A stretch of 64,000 nucleotides of DNA from contig OZ024936.1 of NCBI GenBank assembly GCA_964017235.1, positions 30,030,040 through 30,094,039 of the forward strand. Direction: 5' to 3'. This DNA is from Sabellastarte sp. h YS-2021 (Eukaryota > Annelida > Polychaeta > Sabellida > Sabellidae). Shown piece after piece: positions 5,801 through 63,778 of the stretch. A model generated the notes under the pieces. That model was not told the origin of the DNA, made no database searches, and saw only the letters and a program-made list of their open reading frames with translations. Position 1 is the first letter of the stretch. Every line of letters starts with the position of its first letter. A program made the translations under genes and the position numbers.

Positions 5801-8800
5801 AGAGGGCTGTTTCACCTTGGAGATAATGCTTTGCGATAGGTTTACGACCCTATAAATTGTCCAGTCGGGGGTAGACCTTTTCAATCACTGCTATCTTAAA
5901 GCCACCATTAACCCATTATGTACAGAAGTTACGGCACCCCCAATGGGTGGGCGATAGCATGCGCTTGTATATCTGTTGGGAAGAGTTTATGACAATATTA
6001 AACTGCCTAAAATTATCTCAAACTGCTCTCGATCTGTATCAGATTTTTCTTATCTAAAACCTATCTGAAAGCTATCTTTTCACTCATAAAGTCATCTTTT
6101 TAATCTTATAGCAATCTTATACCCATCTTTAAAGTACAACACAATATTTTCCATCTTACAGCGATCTTTAACCTATACTTTTTCATCATAAACTGATCGT
6201 ATACCTATCCTAAACTTTTTAGGAACCTATTTATGGCAATCTCTGCATTATCGGGATGAGATCTTAAACTTATCTCAAACTACACCCATGGATCGATCAT
6301 GCAATATTTTATTTTTTCCAATTGGGACTGAGGTTTATGATTGGCTAGTCAAGGTGGAACAGCCCCATTAGAGTTGCAGTTGGTTTTTTATTTTCCAAAA
6401 CCAGTTGGTCAGATTTCCAAAAACAGGCGATGACCATTATTAACCAGTTTTGAAATTGTATTAAAAATCTCTTCAAAAACTACAAACGAAACATAAAACT
6501 TTATATATTTGGTGAATCTATATTATGATTTTTGTTAATAAAAGACAAGAGGTTTAAAATAACACGTAATGCCATCAGATGTGTAGCCTTTTATAACCTC
6601 TTACAATATTTAATTGAAGATTTGAAAAAAAAAATTACATTTAATTTTGAATGCAACAACCGGTTGTGAAAAGTTTATAACCATTTGGTTTCTTTCTGCC
6701 AAAAAACCAACCCACAACAAAATAAACTGGTTAAAATTTTTCCATTTACAACCTCATCTACTCTACATTTTTTTGTGTTTCCCTTGCATCAAAATCCAAG
6801 CAGACATTTGTAAAAAATTATGAGTTCAAAAATGGTAGGTTTACGTCAATTTTACTGGATATTTATTGCAAAATAACTTGAACATTTACAGCAGATTTTG
6901 ATGAAATTTCATGAAAAGTCGACACAAGGAAAAGAGGATTAGATTTTGATGTTTATTCGGCTCCCCCTCTGGAATTTTTCAAAGGATTTTTTATCATTGC
7001 ACTCATTAACATTATTGGAAGTGTTGGGTTTTGGCAGAGGTTTGCGGTCAATGAGTGCTTCTGTATTTGTTGTTTTACTCATGACAAGTTTTAAAAATAT
7101 ATACCTCTCTTGGGTAATTTTCCCAACAGTATACGATACACACACAAGACAGATAAATACATTAAATAGACAGAATGTCCCTATAATTCACAATGAAGTA
7201 AATGAGTATGAGTTCTTCAATGAATGAAAAATCTCCTATTTCTTTCTGTATGATTATGTCTTTCATTATTCATTTCTACTGCAAGTAATCATTTCTTTCT
7301 TAACTATATGTGTACTAATTAGAAATAACTAGAGGATCGCTCGCAAAAAAAAAGATAATGTTTTTGCATAGCAAAAACAAAGCGTCCCGAAAAGGATATA
7401 AAGGTGAGTGCTAAAGTATTAAGAAAATGCTTCGTTTCTAGCCTTATACTGTTGTGGCAACCAAAGTCAGCGCAGTCTGCTCTATCTAGCACGGTTTTCA
7501 AGATATAAGCATTTTTGTGTTTTGCAAAAAATAAAAAAATTAAAATTGTCCGCTATATTTGGCGAGACAAAAATATTTTGAAAATTGGCATGGCTACTCT
7601 GCAGAGATACCCAGCAGGTCCAAAATTTTGTTGAGTTCGCTCCATATAGCATGGTTTTCGAGATATAAGCATTTTTGTGTTTTGCAAAGACTTTGAAAAT
7701 TCAAAATGGCCACCATTTTTGGGGAGACAAAAATTTTTGTCAAGACCACTGCCGCGGTGTGTATCTCCCGCCGAGCATTAAAGCAGAAGAAATAGCTTTT
7801 CCGAGATATTCACAATTTTTCATTTTCGTGTGTGAAAGCTCTTCCAAAAGTAGGTGAATGAGTTATTTGAGAAAAATTGGCTATCTGCAATACTATTAAG
7901 AGATAATTCACATTTACTCATTTTGAGTAGGTGAACTAGAGGATCGCTCGCAAAAAAAAAAGATAATGTTTTTGCATAGCAAAAACAAAGCGTCCCGAAA
8001 AGGATATAAAGGTGAGTGCTAAAGTATTAAGAAAATGCTTCGTTTCTAGCCTTATACTGTTGTGGCAACCAAAGTCAGCGCAGTCTGCTCTATCTAGCAC
8101 GGTTTTCAAGGTATAAGCATTTTTGTGTTTTGCAAAAAATAAAAAAATTAAAAATGTCCGCTATATTTGGCGAGACAAAAATATTTTGAAAATTGGCATG
8201 GCTACTCTGCAGAGATACCCAGCAGGTCAAAAATTTTGTTGAGTTCGCTCCATATAGCACGGTTTTCGAGATATAAGCATTTTTGTGTTTTGGAAAAACT
8301 TTGAAAATTCAAAATGGCCACCATTTTTGGGGAGACAAAACTTTTTGTCAAGACCACTGCCGCGGTGTGTATCTCCTGCCGAGCATTAAAGCAGAAGAAA
8401 TAGCTTTTCCGAGATATTCACAATTTTTCATTTTCGTGTGTGAAAGCTCTTCCAAAAGTAGGTGAATGAGTTATTTGAGAAAAATTGGCTATCTGCAATA
8501 CTATTAAGAGATAATTCATATTTACTCATTTTGAGTAGGTGAATAATTATCTATGGGTCTGAAACTTCACCAAGTGAAAGCTCTCCCAAAAGTAGGTGAA
8601 TGAGTTATTTGAGAAAAATTGGCTATCTGCAATACTTTTAGAGATAATTCGCATTTACTCATTTTGAGTAGGTGAGTAATTAGCTATGGGTCTGAAACTT
8701 CACCATGTGAAAGCTCTCCCACAAGTAGATGAATGAGTATTTGATAAAAATTGGGTATCCGTAATACTTTTACAGATAATTAGCATTTACTCATTTTGAG

Positions 8801-11800
8801 TAGGTGAATAAATAGCTATGGGTCTGAAACTTCACCAAGTGAAAGCTCTCCCAAAAGTAGGTGAACGAGTTATTTGAGAAAAATTGGCTATCTGCAATAC
8901 TTTTACAGATAATTCACATTTACTCATTTTGAGTAGGTGAGTAATTATCTATGGGTCTGAAACTTCACCACGTGAAAGCTCTCCCAAAAGTAGGTGAATG
9001 AGTTATTTGAGAAAAATTGGCTATCTGCAATACTTTTAGAGATAATTCGCATTTACTCATTTTGAGTAGGTGAGTAATTAGCTATGGGTCTGAAACTTCA
9101 CAGAGTGAAAGCTCTCCCAAAAGTAGGTGAATGATTAATTTGACAAAAATTGGCTATCTGCAATACTTTTAGAGATAATTCGCATTTACTCATTTTGAGT
9201 AGGTGAGTAATTAGCTATGGGTCTGAAACTTCACAGAGTGAAAGCTCTCCCAAAAGTAGGTGAATGATTAATTTGAGAAAAATTGGCTATCTGCAATACT
9301 TTTAGAGATAATTCGCATTTACTCATTTTGAGTAGGTGAGTAATTAGCTATGGGTCTGAAACTTCACCGAGTGAAAGCTCTCCCAAAAGTAGGTGAATGA
9401 TTAATTTGAGAAAAATTGGCTATCTGCAATACTTTTAGAGATAATTCGCATTTACTCATTTTGAGTAGGTGAGTAATTAGCTATGGGTCTGAAACTTCAC
9501 CGAGTGAAAGCTCTCCCAAAAGTAGGTGAATGATTAATTTGAGAAAAATTGGCTATCTGCAATACTTTTAGAGATAATTCGCATTTACTCATTTTGAGTA
9601 GGTGAGTAATTAGCTATGGGTCTGAAACTTCAGAGAGTGAAAGCTCTCCCAAAAGTAGGTGAATGATTAATTTGAGAAAAATTGGCTATCTGCAATACTT
9701 TTAGAGATAATTCGCATTTACTCATTTTGAGTAGGTGAGTAATTAGCTATGGGTCTGAAACTTCAGAGAGTGAAAGCTCTCCCAAAAGTAGGTGAATGAG
9801 TTATTTGAGAAAAATTGGCTATCTGCAATACTTTTAGAGATAATTCGCATTTACTCATTTTGAGTAGGTGAGTAATTAGCTATGGGTCTGAAACTTCACC
9901 AAGTGAAAGCTCTCCCAAAAGTAGGTGAATGATTAATTTGACAAAAATTGGCTATCTGCAATACTTTTAGAGATAATTCGCATTTACTCATTTTGAGTAG
10001 GTGAGTAATTAGCTATGGGTCTGAAACTTCACCAAGTGAAAGCTCTCCCAAAAGTAGGTGAAGGAGTTATTTGAGAAAAATTGGCTATCTGCAATACTTT
10101 TAGAGATAATTCGCATTTACTCATTTTGAGTAGGTGAGTAATTAGCTATGGGTCTGAAACTTCACCATGTGAAAGCTCTTCCAAAAGTAGGTGAATGAGT
10201 TATTTGAGAAAAATTGGCTATCTGCAATACTTTTAAGAGATAATTCGCATTTACTCATTTTGAGTAGGTGAGTAATCATCTACGGGTCTGAAACTTCACC
10301 ATGTGAAAGCTCTCCCAAAAGTACATGAATGAGTTATTTGATAAAAATTGGGTATCCGCAATAGTTTTTGAGATAATTAGCATTTACTCATTTTGAGTAG
10401 GTGAGTAATTAGCTACGGGTCTGAAACTTCACCAAGTGAAAGCTCTTCCAAAAGTAGGTGAATGAGTTATTTGAGAAAAATTGGCCATCTGCAATACTTT
10501 TAGAGATAATTCGCATTTACTCATTTTGAGTAGGTGAGTAATTAGCTATGGGTCTGAAACTTCACCAAGTGAAAGCTCTCCCAAAAGTAGGTGAGTGATT
10601 AATTTGAGAAAAATTGGCTATCTGCAATACTTTTAGAGATAATTCACATTCACTCATTTTCAGTAGGTGAGTAATTAGCTATGGGTCTGAAACTTCACCA
10701 AGTGAAAGCTCTGCCAAAAGTAGGTGAATGAGTTATTTGAGAAAAATTGGCTATCTGCAATACTTTTAGAGATAATTCGCATTTACTCATTTTGAGTAGG
10801 TGAGTAATTAGCTATGGGTCTGAAACTTCACAGAGTGAAAGCTCTCCCAAAAGTAGGTGAATGAGTTATTTGAGAAAAATTGGCTATCTGCAATACTTTG
10901 AGATAATTCGCATTTACTCATTTTGAGTAGGTGAGTAATTAGCTATGGGTCTGAAACTTCACCAAGTGAAAGCTCTCCCAAAAGTAGGTGAATGATTAAT
11001 TTGACAAAAATTGGCTATCTGCAATACTTTTAGAGATAATTCGCATTTACTCATTTTGAGTAGGTGAGTAATTAGCTATGGGTCTGAAACTTCACAGAGT
11101 GAAAGCTCTCCCAAAAGTAGGTGAATGAGTTATTTGAGAAAAATTGGCTATCTGCAATACTTTTAGAGATAATTCGCATTTACTCATTTTGAGTAGGTGA
11201 GTAATTAGCTATGGGTCTGAAACTTCACCGAGTGAAAGCTCTCCCAAAAGTAGGTGAATGAGTTATTTGAGAAAAATTGGCTATCTGCAATACTTTTAGA
11301 GATAATTCGCATTTACTCATTTTGAGTAGGTGAGTAATTAGCTATGGGTCTGAAACTTCACCAAGTGAAAGCTCTCCCAAAAGTAGGTGAATGATTTATT
11401 TGAGAAAAATTGGCTATCTGCAATACTTTTAGAGATAATTCACATTTACTCATTTTCAGTAGGTGAGTAATTAGCTATGGGTCTGAAACTTCACCATGTG
11501 AAAGCTCTCCCACAAGTAGATGAATGAGTTATTTGATAAAAATTGGGTATCCGCAATACTTTTACAGATAATTAGCATTTACTCATTTTGAGTAGGTAAA
11601 TAATTAGCTATGGGTCTGAAACTTCACCATGCGAAAGCTCTTCCAAAAGTAGGTGAATGAGTTATTTGAGAAAAATTGGCTATCTGCAATACTTTTAAGA
11701 GATAATTCGCATTTACTCATTTTGAGTAGGTGAGTAATCATCTACGGGTCTGAAACTTCACCATGTGAAAGCTCTCCCAAAAGTACATGAATGAGTTATT

Positions 11801-59800: not shown

Positions 59801-60700
59801 TATACAGTCTCTATTGTCTTGGTAATGAAATGAAATTTCAATACTAATAACAGACTTCAATGTAGCTTTCCATATTGTTCGTTTCTCAGACACCATAAAT
59901 GCATTACATTTCAATTGATGTTTAATTTACCAATGTCATATTGTTTTGTGCAGTACAATAGAAAGCAAGAATAGATTTCATAAAGGACTACAGTAAAGCT
60001 TTAAAACATTAACTTATATCTCAAAATAGCTAGTGCAAGTGATAAATTGAGGGTTTTGATATTCAACAACATATAGAACTTTGTTGTGATATTTTCTTGG
60101 AAATGATATTGAAATTGACAATGTTAACACCGAATATTATCGATATTGTAACTCTGAACCATTATCAGTGTAAAATATGATATAATCCAAGTATTGCTTC
60201 CAGTAGTATTTCATACCATTGTATTACAAGCAAATAATATCTTGTGCTCATTAAATTTTGTAGGTATGATATGTCCACGTCATAAAACAGCCACGTAGGT
60301 AAGGTAAACCTAAAATAACCATGAACTATCATGTTTTAAGTTTTAATGTTTTAATATGACCCTCTAATGACAATCCGTAACAAGTAGGTACATGGTAACA
60401 TTTATTTTGTAAAAACTCCAGTTTAAATTGTGCAGATTGATACAATCTCCAAACATCACCGATTGAGCTTTGGCACAGCACACTAGCAATTATCAAACAC
60501 TGTCTAAAAGACTAATAAATGACTCAACCACTAATACTCTATGTACCTCACCTCTCTTCCCTTTCTATAATTCTGAGTACAGTCACCAGTATGGTTGGTT
60601 CACGGCGAGCTGTCATCACGGTTCTCTGTAGCACTAACCACAGCTGTTTGCCCAGCTCTTCCGATAGCTTCTCCACTTGACTGAAGTAGCTCAGGATGGT
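2738..60700 (-). CDS. EXOC3: EXOC3 (Sec6) exocyst subunit, partial gene, ten internal exons
   Basis: Sec6 is a helical-rod subunit of the octameric exocyst, which tethers secretory vesicles to the plasma membrane. Exons in transcript order: 60700-60552, 57849-57736, 56473-56368, 55697-55614, 55020-54851, 52344-52278, 40550-40458, 34128-34035, 3957-3887, 2865-2738. All have GT donors and AG acceptors, and phases join into one frame of about 318 residues without stops. Stretches matching animal Sec6 from memory: [62 protein letters not shown]. Relative to a ~750-residue family this is the middle part; both ends are outside the window. Introns range from ~0.6 to ~30 kb and hold most transposons here. 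Identity is very likely; exon edges are read by eye. Confidence 0.93.
3175..3520 (-). mobile_element. Degenerate tRNA-derived SINE pieces
   Basis: Read on the minus strand, 3520-3445 resembles a tRNA-like SINE head: CATAGTGCATAACACTGGCC (A-box region) followed by CACATCTGAGGTCAGC and a decayed B box. Two related body segments follow (around 3445-3365 and 3275-3185), both containing a variant of TTTTCAGTG(C/T)AGAATCTTGA. Strongly diverged, no target duplication identified. Confidence 0.45.
3653..3881 (+). mobile_element. 229-bp MITE, copy 1, at an EXOC3 splice donor
   Basis: Flanked by TA and bounded by inverted repeats GAGTAAGAAATCTAAAATT / reverse complement; the interior also has inner repeats of the AAATTCGCCA type. 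Two further copies of exactly 229 bp (TA to TA) lie at 14095 and 21265. TA duplication and size fit a Tc1/mariner-type MITE. Its right TA (3880-3881) is positions +6/+7 of the intron whose donor GT is at 3886-3885, so insertion left GTAAG intact. Confidence 0.9.
3887..3957 (-). CDS. EXOC3: EXOC3 exon with MITE abutting its donor
   Basis: 71 nt, acceptor TTTTTCAG, donor GTAAGTA. Completes a split Gly codon and encodes [14 protein letters not shown] then EPQFYLHYM, ending in phase 0. It corresponds to the family region preceding the INNC motif. Confidence 0.92.
3960..7327. other. Intronic sequence, no recognised gene
   Basis: AT-rich. Short open frames at 4627-5081 and 5484-5672 show no recognisable motif. 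At 5990-6270 there is a low-complexity stretch rich in ATCTTA/CTATCTT words. Around 6369-6712 imperfect inverted ends (GTTGGTTTTTT... and ...AAAAAACCAAC) hint at a decayed MITE. Confidence 0.5.
7328..8541 (+). repeat. 607-bp direct duplication starting at the element 5' end
   Basis: 7328-7934 and 7935-8541 are nearly identical (a handful of substitutions and A-run length). The second copy starts exactly at ACTAGAGGATCG, i.e. at the putative transposon 5' terminus, joined to the middle of a 133-bp unit (GAGTAGGTGA). Confidence 0.9.
8542..12040 (+). repeat. 133-bp minisatellite, about 27 copies
   Basis: The phrase GGGTCTGAAACTTCACC recurs from 8557 to 12013 at a mean spacing of 133 bp. Units share CCAAAAGTAGGTGAATGA, TTGGCTATCTGCAATAC and ACTCATTTTGAGTAGGTGAG (the last contains an ACTCATTTTGAGT near-palindrome). 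Higher-order variation is visible: a block with TTGGGTATCCGCAATAG and TACGGGTCTG recurs near 10300-10440 and 11760-11890, suggesting block duplication. AT-rich, non-coding. Confidence 0.95.
12050..12990 (+). repeat. ~169-bp minisatellite with YY1-like motif, five to six copies
   Basis: Units contain CTGCAGAGATACCCTG, TCGTCGAAATCGCTCTATC, GGTTTTCGAGATATAAGCA and AAAATGGCCGCCATTTTTGG. Homologous to the array at 34650-36050 and to single diverged units near 24190-24400 and 33510-33720. Apparent open frames here (for example 12132-12557) are produced by the repeat and are not genes. Confidence 0.92.
13684..13808. mobile_element. Small 125-bp MITE or foldback
   Basis: Bounded by inverted repeats TAGCAATAAAGGA and GGTTTGAGTAT (left) against ATACTCAAACC and TCCTTTATTGCTA (right), about 27 bp with one small mismatch region. 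Starts and ends in TA. Single copy in this window. Confidence 0.7.
14095..14323 (+). mobile_element. 229-bp MITE, copy 2
   Basis: Same length and ends as the copy at 3653, inserted in a TATATA run with TA on both sides. Differs by a small number of substitutions (GATTATTGACG near the right end). Confidence 0.92.
14324..16973. other. Intronic sequence, no recognised gene
   Basis: A short repeat of AAAAGGACA and its inverse TGTCCTTTT lies at 14630-14790, including a near-palindrome at 14740. A 166-codon minus-strand open frame at 15687-16187 has no recognisable domain, no splice context and low-complexity hydrophobic composition. Nothing else is supported. Confidence 0.5.
16974..17220 (+). mobile_element. 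Fragment of the 147-bp-repeat element family
   Basis: Starts ACTAGACCTACGCATCAGAG with a weakened GCAT...ATGC hairpin, followed by the 5' block ATCCACCGGAAAGACAACTC and about one and a half 147-bp units (GACCTTGAAGGAGTGGCC, AAGGTCAAATGTGA). An isolated piece of another unit is at 17868-17955. Confidence 0.75.
17221..20869. other. Intronic sequence, no recognised gene
   Basis: Apart from a possible foldback at 17231-17385 (TGAAAAATAAACTGA versus TCAGTTTATTTTTCA) and the unit fragment at 17868-17955, no gene, RNA or clear element is seen. The open frame at 18476-18826 starts at GTG, spans a T-rich tract and has no motif. Confidence 0.5.
20870..21108. mobile_element. 239-bp mariner-type MITE with ~35-bp inverted ends
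   Basis: Begins TACACGGGTGGTCACAATTG and ends with the exact inverse, CAATTGTGACCACCCGTGTA; the inverted match extends about 35 bp through the CCGGTTCATAAT region. Bounded by TA. The near-perfect ends imply a young insertion. No coding capacity. Confidence 0.92.
21265..21493 (+). mobile_element. 229-bp MITE, copy 3
   Basis: TA-bounded, same 229-bp length and terminal GAGTAAGAAATC as copies at 3653 and 14095, with few substitutions. Confidence 0.92.
21639..22022. mobile_element. 384-bp TA-flanked MITE with GC-rich inverted ends
   Basis: Left end TACCGTAGCCGCGCTCTGTA, right end TACAGAGCGCGGCTACGGTA, exact inverses over 20 bp. The interior has CGCCCAT(C/G) words. A diverged partial copy lies inverted at about 52510-52690, and a half copy at about 54370-54500. 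Open frames inside are incidental. Confidence 0.9.
22075..24180 (+). mobile_element. Helentron-like element with ~130-156-bp core
   Basis: Starts ACTAGACCAAGGACGCATC. At 22319-22329 it has GGTGGGTTGCG, whose exact inverse CGCAACCCACC (24168-24178) forms the right part of the terminal hairpin GGGTTG-gttacacg-CAACCC. Between them lie about 11 tandem units and a GACAGACG microsatellite (24080-24135). Whether the true left end is 22075 or nearer 22300 is uncertain. Confidence 0.65.
22480..24080 (+). repeat. Tandem repeat, 130-156-bp unit
   Basis: Units contain GAATTACACCAATTT, CTAGCTATGATGGTGATCTA, CTCCCTGTCAAGTTTGAATT, GGACAAAGCGTTTTCGAGTT and AAATGTTGA, then a variable GACA/AACGGAC tract whose length causes the spacing differences (132, 138, 156, 133, 137 bp between successive CTAGCTATGA phrases). 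Confidence 0.9.
24181..25170. repeat. Diverged repeat units of two satellite families
   Basis: 24190-24410 holds two diverged ~150-bp units related to the 169-bp family (TTACGGTTTTCGAGATAAAC, AAGATGGCAGCC). 24420-25170 holds degenerate units with GTAGCTATTACTC, GAGTGATTTACTCATT and TTAGCTATGGAGCTA, related to 1-480 and to the 133-bp core. Confidence 0.6.
25795..26560 (+). mobile_element. 146-bp family element, copy B, decayed and 3'-truncated
   Basis: A weak left block (ATAGCTTCAGAGATGTCC, GACATGAGATACAGAAG) at 25795-25865 is followed by AT-rich sequence and two diverged 146-bp units (26300-26550, AAGGTCAAAGGTCAAATCAA). No (GCCC)n tract or terminal hairpin. It ends about 40 bp before the splice acceptor of the ankyrin gene. 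Confidence 0.65.
26581..26598 (+). promoter_or_regulatory. Putative 3' splice site of the ankyrin gene 5' UTR
   Basis: GTTAATATTTTTACAG followed by GGACCC is a good acceptor with a T-rich tract and a candidate branch point, 61 bp before the ATG at 26660. It suggests a non-coding upstream exon that was not located. Confidence 0.5.
26660..28189 (+). CDS. Ankyrin-repeat and SOCS-box protein (ASB-like), 509 aa
   Basis: Likely a substrate receptor of a Cullin-5/Elongin B-C ubiquitin ligase; substrate unknown. Residues 19-48 form an ankyrin repeat ([20 protein letters not shown]). A linker with Cys57, 60, 63 and 65 (CRICKKCIC) and a Ser/Thr-rich insert to about 155 follow. Ankyrin repeats lie at about 158-188, 191-221, 225-255, 259-290, 295-325, 328-358 and 363-391. 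The C-terminus (463-502) looks like a SOCS box, with LPLP as in Cul5 boxes, but the usual BC-box Cys position reads Ala ([11 protein letters not shown]). The ATG at 26660 is the first in frame. The CDS has no intron and sits, opposite in strand, inside the ~30 kb EXOC3 intron. The ankyrin call is firm; SOCS box and ligase role are inferred. Confidence 0.88.
   Translation: MKSEVDRSENQDAEETSPVLSAIQTAVLQGDESRVINLVKNGVDINEQTTKDEHIICRICKKCICDIKDRSYNTASVSKFGATVDDSLDTDVDGKSGVSPPRTTDSLMKTILLCNGSVSSQVSSLSDTITVTFCCRTDCTHKVDSLTDVRTNVHLCKGSTILHLAVLMSSSKMVGVLLTLGAKVELENSQSHTVLHLSAKLDHVDMVKLLTKHGKDINRVNSNKDHVLHTAVTYSSPHVIGYILSQATAIQVPMINRFGKHPIHIAIQNNNPQVLKSLLSAFSKNTQINESNSLSNALHFAVIHNSTDCGQMLIDSGFDVDACDSSNTPLLRVASRFGLESMTSLLLRNGAKVHRTKYKDQGQSALDMALEMTYLDQMLVLLSAGATFYSRSEDKNNTWAIEQMDMKLCLSSDNTPNKKEKFLKLLLFGYQFSGTVLSLAKAREDNIGHAWDEVVQLILTFTKNPLPLQRLAANSILRTLYPNAWVSLKQLPLPKTVLEYVIQHQYSWD
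28190..28715 (+). other. 3' UTR candidate of the ankyrin gene, with AATAAA
   Basis: AT-rich sequence after the TAG stop. AATAAA at 28599-28604 is the first clean polyadenylation hexamer about 410 bp downstream of the stop; transcript end is not proven. Confidence 0.4.
28716..28762. other. Perfect 12-bp stem-loop
   Basis: TTCGGTATCCCG and CGGGATACCGAA are exact inverse repeats separated by 23 bases. It lies 3' of the ankyrin gene. It may be a tiny foldback remnant or an RNA structure; no family recognised. Confidence 0.6.
29228..30613. mobile_element. hAT element, 1370 bp, with 8-bp target duplication
   Basis: GTCTGTAT occurs directly at 29228-29235 and 30606-30613. Between them, 29236-30605 ends in the 11-bp inverted repeat CAGACTTGTAA. 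Dense GTAATAG/CTATTAC words fill both subterminal regions (29250-29395 and 30485-30595), as is common for hAT transposase binding sites. Plus-strand codons around 29967-30140 read [15 protein letters not shown] then CKHC...NLTTHH, resembling a BED zinc finger remnant; no DDE/RNase-H-fold region is seen, so the copy is non-autonomous. Confidence 0.9.
29967..30140 (+). pseudogene. Possible BED zinc finger remnant of a hAT transposase
   Basis: C-x2-C followed about 20 residues later by [12 protein letters not shown] is the BED pattern. It lies centrally in the hAT element. The open frame continues to 30200 without further homology. Assignment is tentative. Confidence 0.45.
30837..33130 (+). mobile_element. 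147-bp-repeat element, Helentron-like 5' end
   Basis: Starts ACTAGACCTAGCGCATCGG with a perfect hairpin GCATCGG-agaa-CCGATGC 12 bp in, then a 5' block (ATCCACCGTAAAGACAA) and 14 tandem units. After the last unit a diverged tail (CTCCGTGGATGACCTTGAAT) runs to about 33130. A 3' terminal hairpin was not found, so the right edge is uncertain. Confidence 0.7.
30940..32995 (+). repeat. 147-bp minisatellite, 14 copies
   Basis: Each unit has TTTGACCTTGAAGGAGGGGC then CCAAGGTCAAATC, i.e. a TGACCTT and an AAGGTCA facing each other about 13 bp apart, followed by CCCAGCCCATGATTTCCTAT, AACCTCTAGGACCAATAATA and AAGCGAGTTATAAGC. Because 147 is a multiple of three, spurious open frames up to 219 codons arise on both strands. 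Confidence 0.95.
33131..34034. repeat. Mixed diverged repeat fragments
   Basis: 33180-33320 holds GGCGGCCATCTTGTTTTTCA and BAC-free AT-rich sequence, repeated with variation at 38690 and 38840. 33510-33740 holds two diverged 169-family units (GACCAAAAATTTTGTCAAAA, AAGATGGCCACC). The remainder up to the EXOC3 donor has no recognised feature. Confidence 0.5.
34035..34128 (-). CDS. EXOC3: EXOC3 exon
   Basis: 94 nt, acceptor GTGTTTGTAG, donor GTAAGA. Encodes [16 protein letters not shown] then [15 protein letters not shown] and one base of the next Gly codon. LQVAA directly follows FQMIEQN in the family, matching the preceding exon. Confidence 0.93.
34426..36446 (+). mobile_element. Helentron-like element with 169-bp core
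   Basis: Starts ACTAGAAATAGGACGCCC. ATGTCCACCCC at 34512 is the inverse of the right arm of the terminal hairpin ATGTCCACC-n9-GGTGGACAT (36420-36446). The core holds about eight ~169-bp units (34650-36050), then diverged CTATTACTCAGTTAGCTA units, then a GACGCCGGACGGCGG tract before the hairpin. It starts about 300 bp from the EXOC3 exon acceptor. Confidence 0.7.
34650..36050 (+). repeat. ~169-bp minisatellite with YY1-like motif, about eight copies
   Basis: Units contain AGAGTACATTCCTTAGATAC, CCTGTGGGTCGAAAATTTCG, CACGGTTAAGGAGATAGAAG, TTTGTGTTTTGCCATTTTTG and AAAATGGCCGCCATTTTTGG. AAAGAGTACATTCC recurs at 169 bp. Homologous to 12050-12990. Confidence 0.93.
36700..36960 (+). mobile_element. 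146-bp family left-block fragment (copy C)
   Basis: ATAGCATCAGAGATGCCTG, a TACCCCACTGCC variant, then ACTTACATAAAGGTCC and GATGACAGC...AATCAGTAAACTAAAA, matching the left blocks at 614, 52732 and 58518. No tandem units follow; the matching right part could be 39590-40388, separated by the 147-bp element at 37204. Confidence 0.7.
37204..38660 (+). mobile_element. 147-bp-repeat element, second copy
   Basis: Starts ACTAGAAGTAGCGCATCGG with the same hairpin GCATCGG-agaa-CCGATGC as 30837, then about eight units of the 147-bp core (more diverged than those at 31 kb), interrupted by the SINE at 38027. Confidence 0.75.
38027..38261 (+). mobile_element. tRNA-derived SINE with 14-bp target duplication
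   Basis: The tRNA-like head has A box TGGCAGAGTGGTA (38038) and B box GGTTCGCTTC (38080). The body has CTTGCCGTTGGTCGGCAGTT and the tail GTTGAAAGCGAGGTAAAACC then an AAATA-type end. Flanks TCGTTTGACCTTGA (38013-38026) and TCGTTAGACCTTGA (38262-38275) differ at one base. It is inserted into a 147-bp unit. Confidence 0.9.
38661..39589. other. Diverged repeat remnants
   Basis: Two copies of a GCCATCTT(A/G)TTTTTCA ... AAAATGAGGCCAAAAATATT segment (38690 and 38845), related to 33190. After 39000, scattered AAGGTCA words but no clear unit. No gene seen. Confidence 0.45.
39590..40388 (+). mobile_element. 146-bp family element, right part (copy C')
   Basis: About five 146-bp units, a short (CCCA)n tract (40307-40330) in place of (GCCC)n, the CACCATAGGTGAAAACAATA block and the terminal GACAGCC-ttaa-GGGCTGTGGGGTAAAA. 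The element ends about 70 bp from the donor of the EXOC3 exon at 40458. Confidence 0.8.
40458..40550 (-). CDS. EXOC3: EXOC3 exon downstream of the transposon-filled intron
   Basis: 93 nt, acceptor TTTTTAACAG, donor GTGAGTG, phase 0 at both ends. Encodes [20 protein letters not shown] and [11 protein letters not shown]. The DW opening and LP(A/I)I(V/L)FQM segment are conserved in Sec6. Confidence 0.94.
41293..41568. repeat. Left subterminal motif cluster of Harbinger
   Basis: Variants of GGGTCGG, CCGACAGG/ACAGGACG and AACAGACAAGCCG recur through the first ~270 bp inside the left terminal repeat, mirroring the denser cluster at the right end. Likely binding sites for the transposase or its SANT partner (inference). 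Confidence 0.6.
41600..42611 (+). pseudogene. Harbinger (HARBI1-like) DDE transposase, two frameshifts
   Basis: A nuclease that cuts at the element ends in the nucleus. The reading frame runs in three pieces: frame 1 to about 41787 ([36 protein letters not shown]), frame 2 from there to about 42160 ([34 protein letters not shown]), and frame 3 to the TAA at 42609-42611 ([37 protein letters not shown]). Both breaks fall at homopolymers, C6 (41784-41789) and G7 (42158-42164); each fits one extra base. The catalytic triad positions are all present: D in ALDGKHI, D in LLGDDAF, E in VVENSFG. No convincing ATG precedes the first piece; an upstream exon is possible. Broken copy or homopolymer sequencing errors. 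Confidence 0.92.
42612..43433. other. Harbinger internal spacer between convergent genes
   Basis: AT-rich to 43000, then G/T-rich. Probably the 3' regions of both genes. The open frames at 43066-43402 are low-complexity and have no recognisable domain. Confidence 0.5.
43434..44912 (-). pseudogene. Harbinger SANT/MADF-like DNA-binding protein, two in-frame TGAs
   Basis: Harbinger transposons need a second, Myb/SANT-type protein that binds DNA and helps import the transposase into the nucleus. One frame from ATG at 44912 ([10 protein letters not shown]) to TAG at 43434 holds: an Arg/Glu-rich charged helix, likely coiled coil (44840-44690); a MADF/SANT-like trihelix ([15 protein letters not shown] to [19 protein letters not shown], 44620-44440); a short basic stretch ([16 protein letters not shown], ~44375-44330); a conserved helical segment ([18 protein letters not shown], ~44160-44105); and a Gln/Ser/Pro-rich tail. 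TGA codons interrupt at 44633-44631 and 44417-44415 without any frame change, so similarity continues on both sides. No TAA or TAG occurs inside. Either nonsense-mutated or, less likely, read through. Confidence 0.85.
45100..45615. repeat. Right subterminal array of CCGACAGGCCTGT-like motifs
   Basis: Roughly twenty imperfect copies of a 12-14-bp word in both orientations (GGCCTGTCGG, ACCGACAGG, ACAGACAGGCC, TTACCGACTG) spaced about 20-30 bp, mostly separated by GTTA/TTAAC linkers. They adjoin the right terminal repeat, whose own sequence reads into GTCGGCTCC. Probable multivalent transposase or SANT-protein binding platform; inference from arrangement. Confidence 0.75.
45717..45889. repeat. 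DIRS left (3') inverted terminal repeat
   Basis: CCTATCCAATGGACAATAG through AGCATCTTTTTCGTT is matched, inverted and with few differences, by 51831-52003. It contains the GC-rich CGGCGCGGACCGGCC and CCGGCTAGGCCGGCCC segments, themselves partial palindromes. Confidence 0.95.
45949..46044. repeat. DIRS internal complementary region
   Basis: 45949-46008 is the inverse of the left outer end (45672-45728) and 46006-46044 the inverse of the right outer end (about 51984-52022), abutting at TTTTATTGCGTT. This is the diagnostic splint of DIRS elements. Confidence 0.95.
46045..46476 (-). other. DIRS 3' untranslated segment
   Basis: Between the recombinase stop and the internal complementary region. 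Includes a C9/T5 run (46226-46240) and a T20 tract at 46321-46340, which reads as poly(A) in the element's sense. No coding sequence. Confidence 0.6.
46477..48033 (-). CDS. DIRS tyrosine recombinase
   Basis: Integrates the circular DNA copy by a phage-integrase-like reaction. The recombinase proper starts around [19 protein letters not shown] (near 47470) with a core-binding domain ([29 protein letters not shown]). The catalytic domain follows: Arg in [12 protein letters not shown], His-x-x-Arg in [13 protein letters not shown], and the nucleophile Tyr in FTQFYLLEE near the end; the R-H-R-Y set is complete. The frame is -1 relative to RT/RNase H and overlaps it by about 700 bp. The open frame starts at a GTG, so the true start is unknown; the first ATG is at 47901. 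Expression may use frameshifting or internal initiation. Intact. Confidence 0.93.
   Translation of the reverse strand: MCPTVENLDLVFPATSDSKSPAYSRPSKCDSRQAIQTGSDHPNRMVPPSGSISTTMQPMAPASNRPICHEVQPQVTSVCLSSTGLSGCSSGCTYSAMGRSGCIHLPTDRHIGQSGGEATGLPVQETHSDCPGVAQHALVLGPSDHVQSGPSQPAQPAQSANTALQSDPSQKSDKSKSPCLAPRASKIKEQGFSEAVAARIETPQRRSTRSVYEAKWTIFTKWCDANQVDFRSPPVKSVADFLMYLFEDKKLQPSTIDGYRSAISDKLGDTTVNMSKNDNLTRLLESFHRDRPKGRRRVPSWNLSLVLHQLTKAPFEPLTEASLKHLTFKTVFLLALGSGKRKSEIHAWQHKNIRHQADWSKVSLFPSPSFLSKNQLAKEGPESVAPVVIPALAPTLDRSLKSDRSLCPVRALRYYLDRTSDIRQDKELVFVSFKKGFDKDISPATISSWIKQTVILCYELSDHHAHTLHQVKAHDMRAFAASKAFQSGVSLEQILSACHWKSHNTFTQFYLLEECGLG
47328..48746 (-). CDS. DIRS RT thumb, RNase H and methyltransferase-like domain
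   Basis: Continues the RT frame after the TGA at 48749-48747. First comes the RT thumb/connection ([20 protein letters not shown]). RNase H, which removes template RNA, has D in [14 protein letters not shown] in [13 protein letters not shown] in [13 protein letters not shown] and D in VIADKLSR. Then comes the methyltransferase-like domain typical of DIRS ([54 protein letters not shown]). It ends at TAA 47328, overlapping the recombinase frame. Confidence 0.92.
   Translation of the reverse strand: MVRARSLETCLQHTQILIKMCQDLGWLVNLEKSELEPKQVFDFVGYQFDLRSGRVRPTPDRWQNLQDKIQTLLSLPACPVRQFMSLIGLLTATEKQVHLGRLHMRPIQWHLKNNWRVPESLEKIIPLPRSLHPHLQWWLEEDNVLQGQPLHPVRHALQIFTDASKEGWGAHLNEFTARGSWSVPESKLHINYLELKAVFLALKEFQDLCVDKIVLVATDNTTVVAYINKEGGMRSGPLCALLWRILTWCSQRQVTLKARHIPGHLNVIADKLSRLGQTIQTEWSLLPEVFQQLCNQWHRPQIDLFATRFNHKLPQFVSPVPDSLAVAVDALTLPWDDLDAYTFPPTAILGKVVEKLLDSPCKRLILIAPGWPNMPWFWDLVTMSSQVPLSLPNLPSLLTQPFNQIPHRNLTNLNLHAWLLEPQKSRNRASLRQWQQELRLLKEGQPDQSMRQSGPFLQSGATLIRWTSGHHL
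48747..49991 (-). pseudogene. DIRS reverse transcriptase, N-terminal part, ends at TGA after YLDD
   Basis: In frame with gag upstream and RNase H downstream. The RT fingers and palm read [61 protein letters not shown] (first catalytic Asp), [13 protein letters not shown] and YLDD. The codon straight after YLDD is TGA; in DIRS relatives a Trp is usual there, so a TGG to TGA change is the simple explanation. Truncation here would remove the RT thumb and RNase H, so without readthrough this copy cannot make a working RT. Confidence 0.9.
49357..49563 (-). CDS. Cysteine-rich module in the -1 frame overlapping RT
   Basis: The frame one step back from RT, open from about 49631, encodes 15 cysteines in about 70 residues, many as C-x2-C pairs ([34 protein letters not shown]). 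Such spacing is typical of zinc binding and unlikely by chance. The RT frame over the same bases is featureless (Ser/Val-rich). It shares its frame with the recombinase. Probably a Gag/nucleocapsid-like zinc module reached by frameshift; which frame is translated is unknown. Confidence 0.6.
49992..51719 (-). CDS. DIRS Gag-like protein (ORF1), 575 aa
   Basis: ATG at 51719 ([15 protein letters not shown]); the frame is open nine codons further upstream without an ATG. Residues ~10-50 hold a Cys/His cluster ([24 protein letters not shown]) that may bind zinc, then a Lys/Pro/Ser-rich low-complexity middle with several SKFPG-type repeats ([33 protein letters not shown]), and a helical C-terminus ([20 protein letters not shown] to [10 protein letters not shown]) as in animal DIRS ORF1. 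It stops at TGA 49994-49992, yet the same frame continues open ([13 protein letters not shown]...) into RT, and [14 protein letters not shown] after the stop reads as more Gag C-terminus. The TGA may thus be a mutation or a readthrough point. Confidence 0.85.
   Translation of the reverse strand: MSSPGQRRGSCGHAMANFDTHQYCARCREKGKGSDPCIKEPQSDNCHICNAFSEDQCQQLATPSYRLKKEKREAKKLVTAPPQESEELVDPANVAVIGAVDKGAVKSPSPAPPPEKKTKKDLKKDTRKEKSPPAKASKSTSQTSADTKIADLDSKWSERFNRLEALILSKNFEPTFSANVKVTPTHSPPSSVENVSEPFIRPSTSSTLPGNGFSAEKHQPTSKAVTDKQTSSSKFPGTGFSATQPQPASQTKSSRPTSTSKFPGQGSSASMHQPASQTASSRPTPLDSVQNRPAVTDRPLPTGPADTGSPTLHRARRDSVSSLSSDANSVQSDRPPLDLYTEEGELSEDPDQTVIDQDQPISEEQNYRETMQGIRSYMGWSHIPEVDNSTATSDDNPFAGPKTVTPGKVSIKMPTEEWLCKKLGKLNLTLTEGYPSRGSEAGGLAKDVFLRPPRSQSKWYGLHTDSQLDPTKVTTWSTDASKLNSSYSRIARYTGLSSTPPASRRIAQETLRRWERSAREASIVCNQAASFNRCLFRVQQNMKDHIKTLSSECKGKGSSKSLVAIDELNYLLDFN
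51831..52003. repeat. DIRS right (5') inverted terminal repeat
   Basis: Inverse of 45717-45889. Lies 110 bp upstream of the Gag ATG, so the promoter is expected here; a CpG-rich TGACGTCA (CRE-like palindrome in the left copy CTGACGTCATAG, TATGACGTCACT here) is present in both repeats. Confidence 0.95.
52278..52344 (-). CDS. EXOC3: EXOC3 exon upstream of the transposon-filled intron
   Basis: 67 nt, acceptor ATATATTGCAG, donor GTGAAGG (weak, no +4/+5 consensus AAG). Completes a split Gln and encodes [20 protein letters not shown] then VK, ending in phase 0. Only 256 bp separate it from the DIRS right end. Confidence 0.93.
52510..52690 (-). mobile_element. Diverged partial copy of the 384-bp MITE, inverted
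   Basis: Read on the minus strand it matches 21840-22010: GATTTGTTTACTAACC, ATATTTTACTTCCAGT, GTTTCCCCATATTC, GCCCATGGGC. Ends are eroded. Confidence 0.7.
52732..54340 (+). mobile_element. 146-bp family element, copy D, best preserved
   Basis: Left block ATAGCATCAGAGATGCCCG with TACCCCACAGC, about 450 bp of unique sequence nearly identical to copy A, seven 146-bp units (53230-54235), a (GCCC)n tract with CAGGAC interruptions (54245-54280), and the intact terminal hairpin CAGCCCTTAAGGGCTG followed by TGGGGTAAAA. The 5' TACCCCACAGC is the inverse of the 3' GCTGTGGGGTA. Confidence 0.85.
54370..54500 (-). mobile_element. Half copy of the 384-bp MITE
   Basis: On the minus strand CGCCCATGCTTTCTGAAGCG and GTTATCGCTCATAAATT match the left half of the 21639 element (GCTCATGCTTTTGAAAGCG, GTTATCGATCATAAATT). 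The other half is absent. Confidence 0.7.
54851..55020 (-). CDS. EXOC3: EXOC3 exon
   Basis: 170 nt, acceptor TATTATACCAG, donor GTAAGTG. Encodes [35 protein letters not shown], then [16 protein letters not shown], ending in phase 2. NEIVSLLTW is a hallmark of Sec6. Confidence 0.95.
55614..55697 (-). CDS. EXOC3: EXOC3 exon
   Basis: 84 nt, 28 codons, phase 0 at both ends; acceptor GTCGTTTTCAG, donor GTGAGTA. Encodes [20 protein letters not shown] and [12 protein letters not shown]-x-Y-(D/E)-I is conserved. Confidence 0.95.
56368..56473 (-). CDS. EXOC3: EXOC3 exon
   Basis: 106 nt, acceptor TTCTATGCAG, donor GTCAGA. Completes a split Arg and encodes [20 protein letters not shown] then [16 protein letters not shown] second possible GT lies downstream (AAG/GTCATG), but only the first keeps the family alignment. 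Confidence 0.94.
57032..57180 (-). mobile_element. tRNA-derived SINE in an EXOC3 intron
   Basis: On the minus strand the head reads TGGTGTCCTAGTGGTTGGCA (A box) and GGTTCAACTCCC (B box); the tail GTTGAATGGGACCTAAAACC then CCAA matches the tail of the SINE at 38027. It is in the same orientation as EXOC3. No clear target duplication. Confidence 0.75.
57736..57849 (-). CDS. EXOC3: EXOC3 exon
   Basis: 114 nt, acceptor TATATTTTTACAG, donor GTAAGTT. Completes a split Ser and encodes [37 protein letters not shown] plus two bases of an Arg codon. The PPGRPK-x-W pattern of the family is present as PPSRPKRW. Confidence 0.93.
57860..58517. other. Intronic sequence, no recognised feature
   Basis: AT-rich; two small open frames (57891-58118, 58025-58219) have no motif and no supporting splice pattern. 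Confidence 0.5.
58518..59640 (+). mobile_element. 146-bp family element, copy E
   Basis: Left block ATAGCATCAGAGATGCCCATACCCC with a shortened unique part, about five 146-bp units (58840-59545), a short GCCCGCCCGCCC tract, and the end CAGCCCTTAAGGGTTGTGGAGTAAAA, where the right hairpin arm carries two substitutions that create G-T and mismatch pairs. Confidence 0.82.
59641..60551. other. Intronic sequence, no recognised feature
   Basis: AT-rich, no open frame, repeat or RNA structure that I can support. Confidence 0.5.
60552..60700 (-). CDS. EXOC3: EXOC3 exon (first one in window)
   Basis: 149 nt. Encodes [40 protein letters not shown] and VLRIIEREE plus two bases of a Ser codon. The donor GTGAGG is good; the acceptor CATTTTAAG lacks a strong pyrimidine tract, so the left edge of the coding exon is the least certain. 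The N-terminal ~190 residues of the protein lie further right, outside the window or unrecognised. Confidence 0.92.
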
Positions 60701-60765
60701 CTTAAAATGGATGATTTATTTACAAACTGAGACTAAGTAAGCCTATAATAATAATATCAATAATA

Positions 60766-63241
60766 ACTAGAGGAATGCTTTTGCTAACAAAAGCGAAGTG
60801 TCCCTTAAAGTTTAAAATGCTTTGTGGTTTTAATAAGCATGCTGTAAAGCTAAGAATGCACAAAGCTGCACCGTATGCTTTCCCAATACCTCTTAATACA
60901 TTCTGAAGCTATAAAAGCAACAATAAAGGAGATATAAGGCAAAAACTCCAAAGCAGCTATTTATGACCCCAGTTTGGCCCATAAGGGAGGGTCGGGGGGT
61001 AAAACTGACAGGCTATTTAGACTCTCCACATATGCTTTCCCAATACCTCTTAATACATTCTGAAGGTCTCAAAGCAACAATAAAGGAGATATAAGGCAAA
61101 AACTCAAAATCAGCTATTTTATGACCCCAGTTTGACCCATAAGGAGGGGGGGGGGGGGGGGGGTAAAACTGACCGGCTATTTAGACTCTCCACATATGCT
61201 TTCCCAATACCTTTTAATACATTTTGAAGGTGTAAAAGCAACAATAAAAGAGATATAAGGCAAAACTCGAAAGCAACTATTTTATGACCCCAGTTTGACC
61301 CATAAGGGGGGGGGGATAAAACTGACCGGCTATTTAGATTCTCCACATATGCTTTCCCAATACCTCTTAATACATTCTGAAGCTATAAAAGCAACAATAA
61401 AGGAGATATAAGGCAAAAACTCCAAAGCAGCTATTTATGACCCCAGTTTGGCCCATAAGGGGGGGTCGGGGGGTAAAACTGACCGGCTATTTAGACTCTC
61501 CACATATGCTTTCCCAATACCTCTTAATATATTCTGAAGCTATAAAAGCAACAATAAAGGAGATAAAGGCAAAAACTCAAAATCGGCTATTTTATGACCC
61601 CAGTTTGACCCATAAGGTGGGGTCGGGGGGTAAAACTGACCGGCTATTTAGACTCTCCATATATGCTTTCCCAATACCTCTTAATACATTCTGAAGCTAT
61701 AAAAGCAACAATAAAGGAGATATAAGGCAAAAACTCAAAATCGGCTATTTGTGACCCCAGTTTGACCCATAAGGGAGGGTCGGGGGGTAAAACTGACAGG
61801 CTATTTAGACTCTCCACATATGCTTTCCCAATACCTCTTAATACATTCTGAAGGTCTCAAAGCAACAATAAAGGAGATATGAGGCAAAAACTCAAAATCA
61901 GCTATTTTATGATCCCAGTTTGACCCATAGGGGGGGGGGGGGGGGGGGCGGGGGGTAAAACTGACCGGCTATTTAGACTCTCCACATATGCTTTCCCAAT
62001 ACCTTTTAATACATTTTGAAGCTATAAAAGCAACAATAAAGGAGATAAAGGCAAAAACTCAAAATCGGCTATTTTATGACCCCAGTTTGACCCATAAGGT
62101 GGGGTCGGGGGGTAAAACTGACCGGCTATTTAGACTCTCCACATATGCTTTCCCAATACCTCTTAATACATTCTGAAGCTGTAAAAGCAACAATAAAGGC
62201 GATATAAGGCAAAAACTCCAAAGCAGCTATTTATGACCCCAGTTTGGCCCATAAGGGGGGGTCGGGGGGTAAAACTGACCGGCAATTTAGACTCTCCACA
62301 TATGCTTTCCCAATACCTCTTAATATATTTTGAAGCTATAAAAGCAACAATAAAGGAGATAAAGGCAAAAACTCAAAATCGGCTATTTTATTACCCCAGT
62401 TTGACCCATAAGGTGGGGTCAGGGGGTAAAACTGACCGGCTATTTAGACTCTCCATATATGCTTTCCCAATACCTCTTAATACATTTTGATGCTATAAAA
62501 GCAACAATAAAGGAGATATAAGGCAAAAACTCAAAATCGGCTATTTGTGACCCCAGTTTGACCCATAAGGGGGGGGTCGGGGGTAAAACTGACCGGCTAT
62601 TTAGACTCTCCATATATGCTTTCCCAATACCTCTTAATACATTCTGAAGCTATAAAAGCAACAATAAAGGAGATATAAGGCAAAAACTCAAAATCAGCTA
62701 TTTTATGACCCCAGTTTGACCCATAAGGGGGGGGCCGTGGGGTAAAACTGACCGGCTATTTAGACTCTCCACATATGGTTTCCTATTACCTCCCAGTACA
62801 TTTTATAGCTCTAAATGCAATACTTAAGAAGATAATAGGGGGGTTGGCCTAAATTTAAGGCTTTCAGATTGGAAGGTGTCAGAAAATCACTCATAAATGA
62901 GACATTTTTCAAGGGATTGCTCCCAAAATCTAATCAGCTTGCGTTTTCGATAGTATGAACATGTGTGTCAAATTATAAGGCTCTGTAGCAAGTAGTTTTT
63001 CCTGAACTGTGATAATGGGGCAGTGTACTTCAAAAAATAGTTTTTGATCATGTGACCTTCATAAAGGTCAAAGGTCAAATTTAAGCATGCAGAAAAATTT
63101 TCCCACGCCTAAGGTATATAACTGCCAAATATGGTTTGAAACCTTCTAATAATAAGGGAGATATTCAAGGGAGACCATAATGCGGTGGCGGCGGCGAGGA
63201 AACTGAGGCGAAAACAAATAAGCGCCCTTTCAGGGACGCTT
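60766..63241 (+). mobile_element. Helentron-like element with 159-bp core
   Basis: Starts ACTAGAGGAATGC with the 5' hairpin GCTTTTG-ctaa-CAAAAGC followed by GAAGTGTCCCTTAA. Twelve ~159-bp units (60878-62780) are followed by ~400 bp of unique sequence (including AAAGGTCAAAGGTCAAATTT at 63065), a GCGGTGGCGGCGGCG tract, and the 3' hairpin AAGCGCCC-tttca-GGGACGCTT (63220-63241) followed by AATTATT. Both ends are homologous to those of the element at 7328-13370 although the cores are unrelated. Confidence 0.75.
60878..62790 (+). repeat. 159-bp minisatellite with G-runs, 12 copies
   Basis: Units share ATGCTTTCCCAATACCTCTT, AGCTATAAAAGCAACAATAA, GACCCCAGTTTGACCCATAA and AAAACTGACCGGCTATTTAG. Each has a run of G (3-19) between CCATAA and TAAAAC; the longest are G18 (61146-61163) and G19 (61930-61948), which suggests instability. 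No coding. Confidence 0.95.
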
Positions 63242-63778
63242 AATTATTGTACAGTTGTAGTGTTGCGACGATGTTGGTAGTTCGCTCTTTGACTGTCCTG
63301 AAAATGAAGTTTGGTTCAAACATCTGAAATTCGCGTTTAGAAATCACCAACATCACAACAGATGATATTTTCCCATCTTTAATACTTGTGTTTTTTTTAA
63401 AAAACATGGTGAAACATTCCCTCCAAAATGAACAGATTTTTGATCTTTTTACCATATTTTCAATAAAATGACAAGCTTTTATATCAGTTTTCTACTGGTT
63501 TTGAAAACGTTGCTTTGATGATGAAACTAGAACGAAGTTTGCTAGCTTATAGCAATACCAAATATTGAAGCCAAAATTCTACGTGCTTTCACAGTACTAT
63601 CAAATAGCCAAGCTCTAACTCTGCTTACTGCCAGTCACAAGGTGTAACAACTAAAAGTTATTTTCCACAAAAAGTAGTTGTCTGTGAAGCCTTGGTGTTA
63701 GCTTTATTTGATCAAAGTGGAAAAAGCATAATATTGTAAATTTTAATTACTTAAATGTAGCTTTTATAAGCTACAAGC
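63242..63778. other. Sequence without recognised feature
   Basis: AT-rich. No EXOC3-like exon was found here, and the 71-codon minus-strand open frame at 63240-63455 shows no motif. Confidence 0.5.

Follow-up and report, generated by a model that had tools for sequence, protein, structure and literature searches.

Satellite-carrying non-autonomous Helentrons (HINEs) are known in oysters (PMC7492417, PMC11136912, PMC12628747), and the pearl elements were later re-classed in this group (PMC7492417). The accessible text of the latter paper also describes ends common to unrelated cores for oyster 'group 2' elements and some Cg_HINEs. The window analyzed here is the whole of a 64,000-nucleotide stretch of the annelid Sabellastarte sp. 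h YS-2021 (contig OZ024936.1, hereafter C14, positions 30,030,040-30,094,039; genome 1.786 Gb). It contains packaged tandem arrays that we grouped into six families of our own naming, with periods, according to Tandem Repeats Finder, of 169 and 133 bp in series in F1, 157 bp in F2, 147 bp in F3, 130-156 bp in F4, 169 bp in F5 and 146 bp in F6. With a probability of roughly 0.88, these packages are HINEs, the non-coding relatives of Helentrons. A preliminary description of this DNA, made from its letters alone, had proposed a Helentron/DINE-1/pearl-type class; this is borne out in the form described for oyster (PMC7492417, in its accessible part), and the hairpins, microsatellites and tandem cores that it reported are confirmed.

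The preliminary description had taken the heptamer AACTAGA as the left start of the elements. The orientation is the reverse: AACTAGA is the reverse complement of TCTAGTT, a 3' terminus, and the 5' end is the GC-rich hairpin on the other side. The minus strand therefore carries all 12 elements or fragments. The direction of F4 is fixed because the frame of a coding Helentron, described below, runs toward the end that matches window positions 22476-22280, on the minus strand. Read along this strand, F1, F2, F5 and F6 display a 5' palindrome (a subterminal inverted repeat, subTIR, and its complement), a microsatellite-like stretch, the array and then, on the 3' side, a subTIR followed by a palindrome and the terminus, which is the plan of HINEs as given in the accessible text of PMC7492417 and PMC4067079. 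The subTIRs form exact runs of 12 bp in F5, 11 bp in F6c and 10 bp in F1, for a HINE expectation of ~11-15 bp. The F2 match is short, at 6 bp only, and a 6-bp run counted automatically in F6a is not its subTIR. In F4 the pair GGTGGGTTGCG/CGCAACCCACC is visible by eye; the automatic count gave nothing there owing to the placement of the ends. The distance from the subTIR to the 3' terminus is 22 nt in F6c, 54 nt in F1 and 87 nt in F5. A short palindrome past the 3' subTIR was found by inspection in F1, F2, F5 and F6, F3 also has a palindrome, that of F4 is indistinct, and a T-run precedes the 5' ends of the F6 and F4 types.

The F1 element (7934-13372) begins with the palindrome TTAAGCGTCCCGCAAGGGACGCTT at ~13372, and its 3' end at 7934 comprises the subTIR CGGGACGCTT, the palindrome GTTTTTGCTATGCAAAAAC and TCTAGTT. 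A duplicated second F1 3' end, with a partial 133-bp monomer, occupies 7327-7933 as a near-copy of 7934-8540; the two ends in series (7327-8540) are 607 bp apart, and the repeat unit begins exactly at the terminus, as if copying had overrun the end. The F2 element (60765-63243) has end motifs related to those of F1. F5 (34425-36447) carries the 5' palindrome ATGTCCACCCC and, on the 34425 side, the subTIR TGGGGTGGACAT, the palindrome ACACATGATAATGTGT and TCTAGTT. F6a (612-2215) starts at ~2215 with a T-run, a hairpin and a CCGCCC microsatellite, and ends at ~612-640 with the 3' subTIR and the palindrome GCATCTCTGATGC; the same family includes F6b (39615-40391, 5' part and array), F6c (52730-54342), F6d (58516-59643) and a 3' fragment that has no array (36684-36941). 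F4 extends from 22303 to 24180. The three F3 copies, whose right limits are approximate, are a 3' remnant with a diverged hairpin (F3a, 16973-17240), F3b (30836-33860) and F3c (37203-38900). A short interspersed element (SINE), presumably tRNA-like and present in 11,576 exact-motif copies genome-wide, is inserted in the F3c array at ~38028-38262.

All eight AACTAGA sites of the preliminary description are present, each one position lower than it had placed them (7327, 7934, 16973, 22074, 30836, 34425, 37203 and 60765), and seven of them are element ends (F1, F2, F3 and F5, that of F2 by inference). The site at 22074 is a chance occurrence; F4 stops instead at ~22303 with ...CTCTTGT, and the same end is found in three coding Helentron copies (E1, E2 and E5). 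F6 has no AACTAGA end either: in F6a, F6c, F6d and one fragment the common sequence stops near ...GCATCTCTGATGCTATTTTT, with the GCATCTCTGATGC palindrome and then a T-run at the end. These two families rule out AACTAGA as a universal end, and instead of the single terminal plan that had been proposed there are at least three different 3' termini (TCTAGTT, CTCTTGT and GATGCTATTTTT). The heptamer alone is not enriched within the window (16 occurrences against 10.2 expected; 16 was reached in 6 of 100 shuffles), but it is enriched genome-wide when coupled to a hairpin. With the reversed pattern as control, the F1-type pattern AACTAGA-N(0-30)-GTTTTTGC occurs 14,385 times (control 227) and AACTAGA with the F3 hairpin, at no more than one mismatch, 3,028 times (control 0). 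The patterns of the other families gave 7,077 matches for F6, 2,576 for F5 and 112 copies of the exact F2 subfamily, each against none in the control.

The likeness of F1-type copies from two clusters stops directly after TCTAGTT in 19 of 19 cases, and their 3' flanks (~150 bp) are mutually dissimilar. Because these copies were chosen by the AACTAGA pattern, they test where likeness stops but say nothing on how frequently the word is retained. Eight F1-pattern loci fetched genome-wide likewise diverge right past TCTAGTT, as do the three F3 copies of the window, and the same terminus of F5 is common to the window copy and one second copy (L052). For F2, the terminus TCTAGTT is suggested by the copy in the window and by its resemblance to F1.

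Canonical Helitrons have a 5' TC and a 3' CTRR, insert between A and T, and have no endonuclease. The families of the window do not conform to this type: their 5' ends are not TC, and the coding relative of F4 has an endonuclease domain. TCTAGTT contains CTAG in four families. Cut-and-paste miniature inverted-repeat transposable elements, or foldback elements, containing tandem cores, the form in which pearl was originally presented, would account for the short inverted repeats found close to each end. However, the repeats are subterminal, the ends are asymmetric, and the 3' palindrome comes after the subTIR. Moreover, one coding copy lies within a 157-bp array whose phase is preserved, with a T-run at the junction and no target duplication in this single insertion, and for F4 an element encoding Rep, helicase and endonuclease has the same ends and array. 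We regard a cut-and-paste or foldback origin as hardly credible.

The coding element was identified in a search of the genome with Helitron_like_N, which returned 24 places. One coding family (L012, L014, L015 and L017) comprises copies that are ~99% identical, with an element length of ~12 kb. In its copy E1, a frame open over at least 1,897 amino acids, scanned as two pieces, matches the Pfam domains Helitron_like_N (E 1e-25), DUF6570 (E 6e-14), PIF1 (E 2e-28) and Exo_endo_phos (E 3e-5; at 24.2 bits slightly below Pfam's cut-off of 24.5). E1 thus displays the fusion of a Rep-helicase to an apurinic/apyrimidinic-type endonuclease by which Helentrons are recognized. The 5' end of the E1 family consists of a T-run, AGGYGGGTTGCGTGTAACCAACCCGCC and a GTCC/GTCT microsatellite, followed by an F4-like array that in E1 sits between the 5' end and the Rep gene. 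The 5' hairpin is common to E1 and F4, the E1 array is 78% identical to window positions 24184-23173 over 1,134 bp, and an identity of 86% over 198 bp links its 3' end to positions 22476-22280. The sister copy E2 is 98.6% identical to E1 in the 5' half and 99.1% in the 3' half, and the two are alike from the array to the 3' end. E1 is embedded in an F2-like array of 157-bp monomers that picks up again in phase beyond the element, and E1's own array is not followed by an F4-like 3' end in the 6 kb that precede the coding locus. Because of these two observations, E1 is one element and not a HINE next to a gene. In this one family, therefore, a coding Helentron possesses its own satellite array.

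Since an F4-related array lies inside a coding Helentron, the F4 HINE is most plausibly a relative of it whose coding part has been lost, and the position of the array favours, for F4, inheritance over separate capture. The tie bears on the origin of the arrays: HINEs could have captured them, or the coding element could have passed them on. Several observations weigh against the overall HINE interpretation. The identity between F4 and the coding element is only 78-86%, which makes them relatives rather than parent and child, and the coding copy E3 departs before the common 3' end. F4 is the only one of the six families with ends in common with an autonomous Helentron; no coding partner for F1, F2, F3, F5 or F6 was found around seven further Rep clusters or single loci, from the 24 places, that were compared with the window, four of them represented by their downstream surroundings only. 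The autonomous Rep/helicase element envisaged in the preliminary description was accordingly found for F4 and not for the AACTAGA families. The Rep locus L009 was considered as owner of an F6 array, but that F6 copy has its own 3' end and is a complete neighbouring HINE. Other repeats were noted at the coding loci. Another F4-type array lies directly before the 5' end of the coding copy E5 (L045), in the same direction. Tandem repeats of 63/126 bp occur in the Rep reading frame (L037:5770 to L015:450). At two other Rep loci, repeats of 69/138 and 51/102 bp, probably coding, are found close to where the coding region begins.

The preliminary description had further proposed that unrelated cores are swapped between conserved ends. 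This is supported in part: F1 and F2 have common end motifs around unrelated cores, and at the eight F1-pattern loci a 133-bp core lies beside the F1-type 3' end in five and a 169-bp core in one. The remaining two are diverged subfamilies with no array within 1.5 kb. The earlier observation is thus largely real, and its interpretation holds in part.

The agreement in strand among the 12 elements or fragments of the window has a chance probability of 0.0005 if they are independent, by arithmetic. Over the whole genome, each family counted is split almost evenly between the strands. Neighbouring copies were compared in strand lists made up of the first 100 listed places per family, all on contig C1 (reaching 18 Mb for F1, 27.7 Mb for F6, 62.5 Mb for F5, 94.6 Mb for F3 and 19.6 Mb for the SINE); one F1 row overlapping another was removed (n=99), and the counts of pairs that follow are among these listed matches. 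Same-family neighbours less than 100 kb apart agree in 52/64 cases for F1 and 20/24 for F3, and in 26/48 for the SINE. Cross-family pairs of F1, F3 and F6 within 50 kb are on the same strand in 59 of 67 cases, and F5, added as a new test after the pattern had been seen, agrees with the other three in 63 of 72. Because the pairs are not mutually independent, a rotation null was used, in which the strand list of each family was rotated with its own order preserved (1,000 trials). For the pooled pairs within 50 kb, 122 of 139 are alike, compared with a null of 0.50±0.05 that was never as high (0/1,000). By distance, the agreement across F1, F3, F5 and F6 is 61/68 below 20 kb, 61/71 at 20-50 kb, 79/119 at 50-100 kb and 143/223 at 100-200 kb (null 0.501±0.041; 2/1,000 as high). 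At 200-500 kb it is 299/608, and there is no cross-family agreement beyond 200 kb. At 500-1000 kb, 381 of 861 pairs (44%) are alike; this value below one half is unexplained and could hint at alternating domains. The SINE, used as a control within 50 kb, gave no agreement (SINE by HINE 26/59, SINE by SINE 11/27, F5 by SINE 0/7), and a DIRS-like element intended as second control, with 394 copies, was too sparse.

Segmental duplication or local tandem copying could produce such agreement as an artefact, and same-family clusters do exist, as in three same-strand F2 copies ~8.7 kb apart at C14:10,560,914-10,578,349 that are probably a local duplication. However, the flanks in the two same-strand clusters examined are mutually unrelated (19/19), which means that duplication is not the cause there, and the effect holds across unrelated families with the order within each family kept. 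Duplication is therefore a very improbable explanation. Six segments were taken at round coordinates in two minus clusters; three contain HINE matches, on the expected strand except for ~140 bp in L055, and three contain none.

The host genes provide a second reference for element direction. The start of a Sec6 domain was found in an exon at 60590-60715 (minus strand; Pfam E 0.013, profile 1-31), and two further minus-strand matches lie at ~55.6 and ~55.0 kb (E 4e-6 and 4e-5; profile 124-154 and 152-209). Each of the three is under the family cut-off, but they are collinear, and the HINEs of the window are on the same strand as these exons. On this strand, two stretches resembling exons, at 34.0 and 2.8 kb, had no significant Pfam family match, and a PDB search of three window exons gave nothing significant. 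A Pfam scan for host exons in five of the six cluster segments (L055 omitted, L052 and L056 partial, one L056 frame left out) gave no result. A kinase catalytic-loop motif, with 50 matches genome-wide and 2 in the reversed control, was used to sample further genes. Fourteen loci were taken in list order, without the first two rows, which lie 1 kb from each other, and without one close neighbour; nine have HINE matches and five have none. The HINE is sense to the gene at seven of the nine (L077, L078, L080, L082, L084, L086 and L087), and counted by element there are 9 sense and 2 antisense; the matches at L082 and L088 are ~100 bp. Overlapping F3 and F1 matches at L087 were scored once, a 31-bp antisense F6 match within a sense F6 at L084 was left uncounted, and L081 was included though it has no kinase-like frame around the motif. 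By arithmetic, 7/9 is not significant alone (one-sided 0.09), and with the window gene the count is 8/10 (0.055).

The agreement itself is measured, and its cause can be approached only by inference: the orientation of the elements would follow some strand property that the host has locally, for which the sense strand of transcribed genes is the foremost candidate and the direction of replication forks the next. The balance of evidence moderately favours the view that unrelated Helentron-type families insert in one direction over domains of ~100-200 kb, their protein capturing the host strand that is locally single-stranded, be it the coding strand or the lagging template. As to which strand, the gene-sense excess leans toward transcription, and exposure of the coding strand of transcribed genes is our tentative choice, at somewhat less than even odds. 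The agreement at 100-200 kb leans toward fork direction, as this is longer than most genes are expected to be. In that case an HUH-type protein would insert into the single-stranded lagging-strand template, as in bacterial IS200/IS605, whose orientation mirrors replication direction (PMC5371812, in its accessible part). This alternative is possible but doubtful, given that the elements are mostly sense to host genes (7/9 loci and the Sec6 exons) and that no base skew was found. The former argument is weak, because forks and transcription may be co-oriented. Unbiased insertion followed by selection that purges antisense or otherwise harmful intronic elements would likewise yield a sense excess near genes. 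Selection on intronic insertions, however, usually disfavours the sense direction, the one SINE tested showed no agreement, and the agreement extends to 100-200 kb; selection is therefore unlikely.

Other results weigh against one-directional insertion into a locally exposed strand. The strand lists are limited to C1, and the family pairs scatter (F5 by F3 15/37 at 100-200 kb, F3 by F6 4/11 at 50-100 kb). Near two Rep loci there are arrays in opposite direction, F1-type near A6 and F6-type near B11; the array by B20 and the neighbours of A1, A4 and E5 agree in direction. No base skew follows the element strand (G over C in 11/22 segments, T over A in 9/22), and the HINE is antisense at two of the nine kinase loci, L081 and L088.

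The proposed mechanism would proceed as follows. A coding Helentron would provide the Rep-helicase-endonuclease protein in trans, and a single strand would be copied from the 5' end, with its subTIR, complementary inverted repeat and microsatellite, across the satellite array. Copying would halt at the 3' subTIR, palindrome and terminus, and the single strand would then be inserted at a T-rich site, with no duplication of the target. The arrays may lengthen or shorten while copying or recombining, by slippage, recombination or repeated circling, and each family would thereby spread its own satellite. If capture of a locally exposed strand is correct, the orientation of thousands of old insertions would preserve, as a fossil map, the direction of transcription or of the forks in the germ line. 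Strand domains, if genome-wide, would be the first known sign that the strand state of the host decides which target strand a eukaryotic rolling-circle transposon chooses, and would allow the in vivo insertion target of Helentrons to be tested from sequence.

Three further features of the window were noted. An uninterrupted ankyrin-repeat frame of 509 amino acids lies at 26660-28189 on the plus strand, opposite to the Sec6 exons. A presumably DIRS-like retroelement, in which reverse transcriptase and phage-integrase-like domains were recognized, occupies 46477-49964 on the minus strand, with open frames on to 51746; its reverse transcriptase motif occurs 394 times genome-wide. A DDE_Tnp_4 nuclease fragment, presumably Harbinger-like, is found at 41756-42238 on the plus strand.

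Compared with known systems, the window elements most resemble Cg_HINE of Crassostrea gigas, which according to the accessible text of PMC7492417 has a subTIR, complementary inverted repeat and microsatellite on one side, an array, and a subTIR and palindrome on the other. Its insertions are at T-rich sites without target duplication, as may be the case here; as here, some elements have common ends around unrelated cores, and some contain two arrays, as does F1. In contrast to the present case, no autonomous Helentron could be related to Cg_HINE there, whereas here a coding Helentron matches the 5' hairpin, array and 3' end of F4; insertion in both orientations is reported, and local strand agreement is not mentioned in that text. 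The same source describes pearl (CvA, CvE and CvG), MgE and DTC84 of bivalves, likened here by description, with short arrays of ~160-bp central repeats. Helentrons, HINEs and DINE-1, as presented in the accessible part of PMC4067079, have in common with the present elements the Rep-helicase-endonuclease protein, the subTIRs, the 3' palindrome and probably the T-rich target. In mite HINEs, by contrast, the subTIR lies ~38-60 nt from the 3' terminus (22-87 nt here), and that part says nothing of an array within the coding element. In the open-licence literature, as far as its accessible text goes, no earlier report was found of a coding Helentron with the ends and array of a satellite HINE, nor of local strand agreement between Helitron or HINE families; as far as these searches show, both are new. 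IS200/IS605 elements differ in being bacterial and of the peel-and-paste type. They would share single-strand insertion and an orientation tied to the strand state of the host, and on the accessible text of PMC5371812 they are the nearest precedent for the strand agreement described here.

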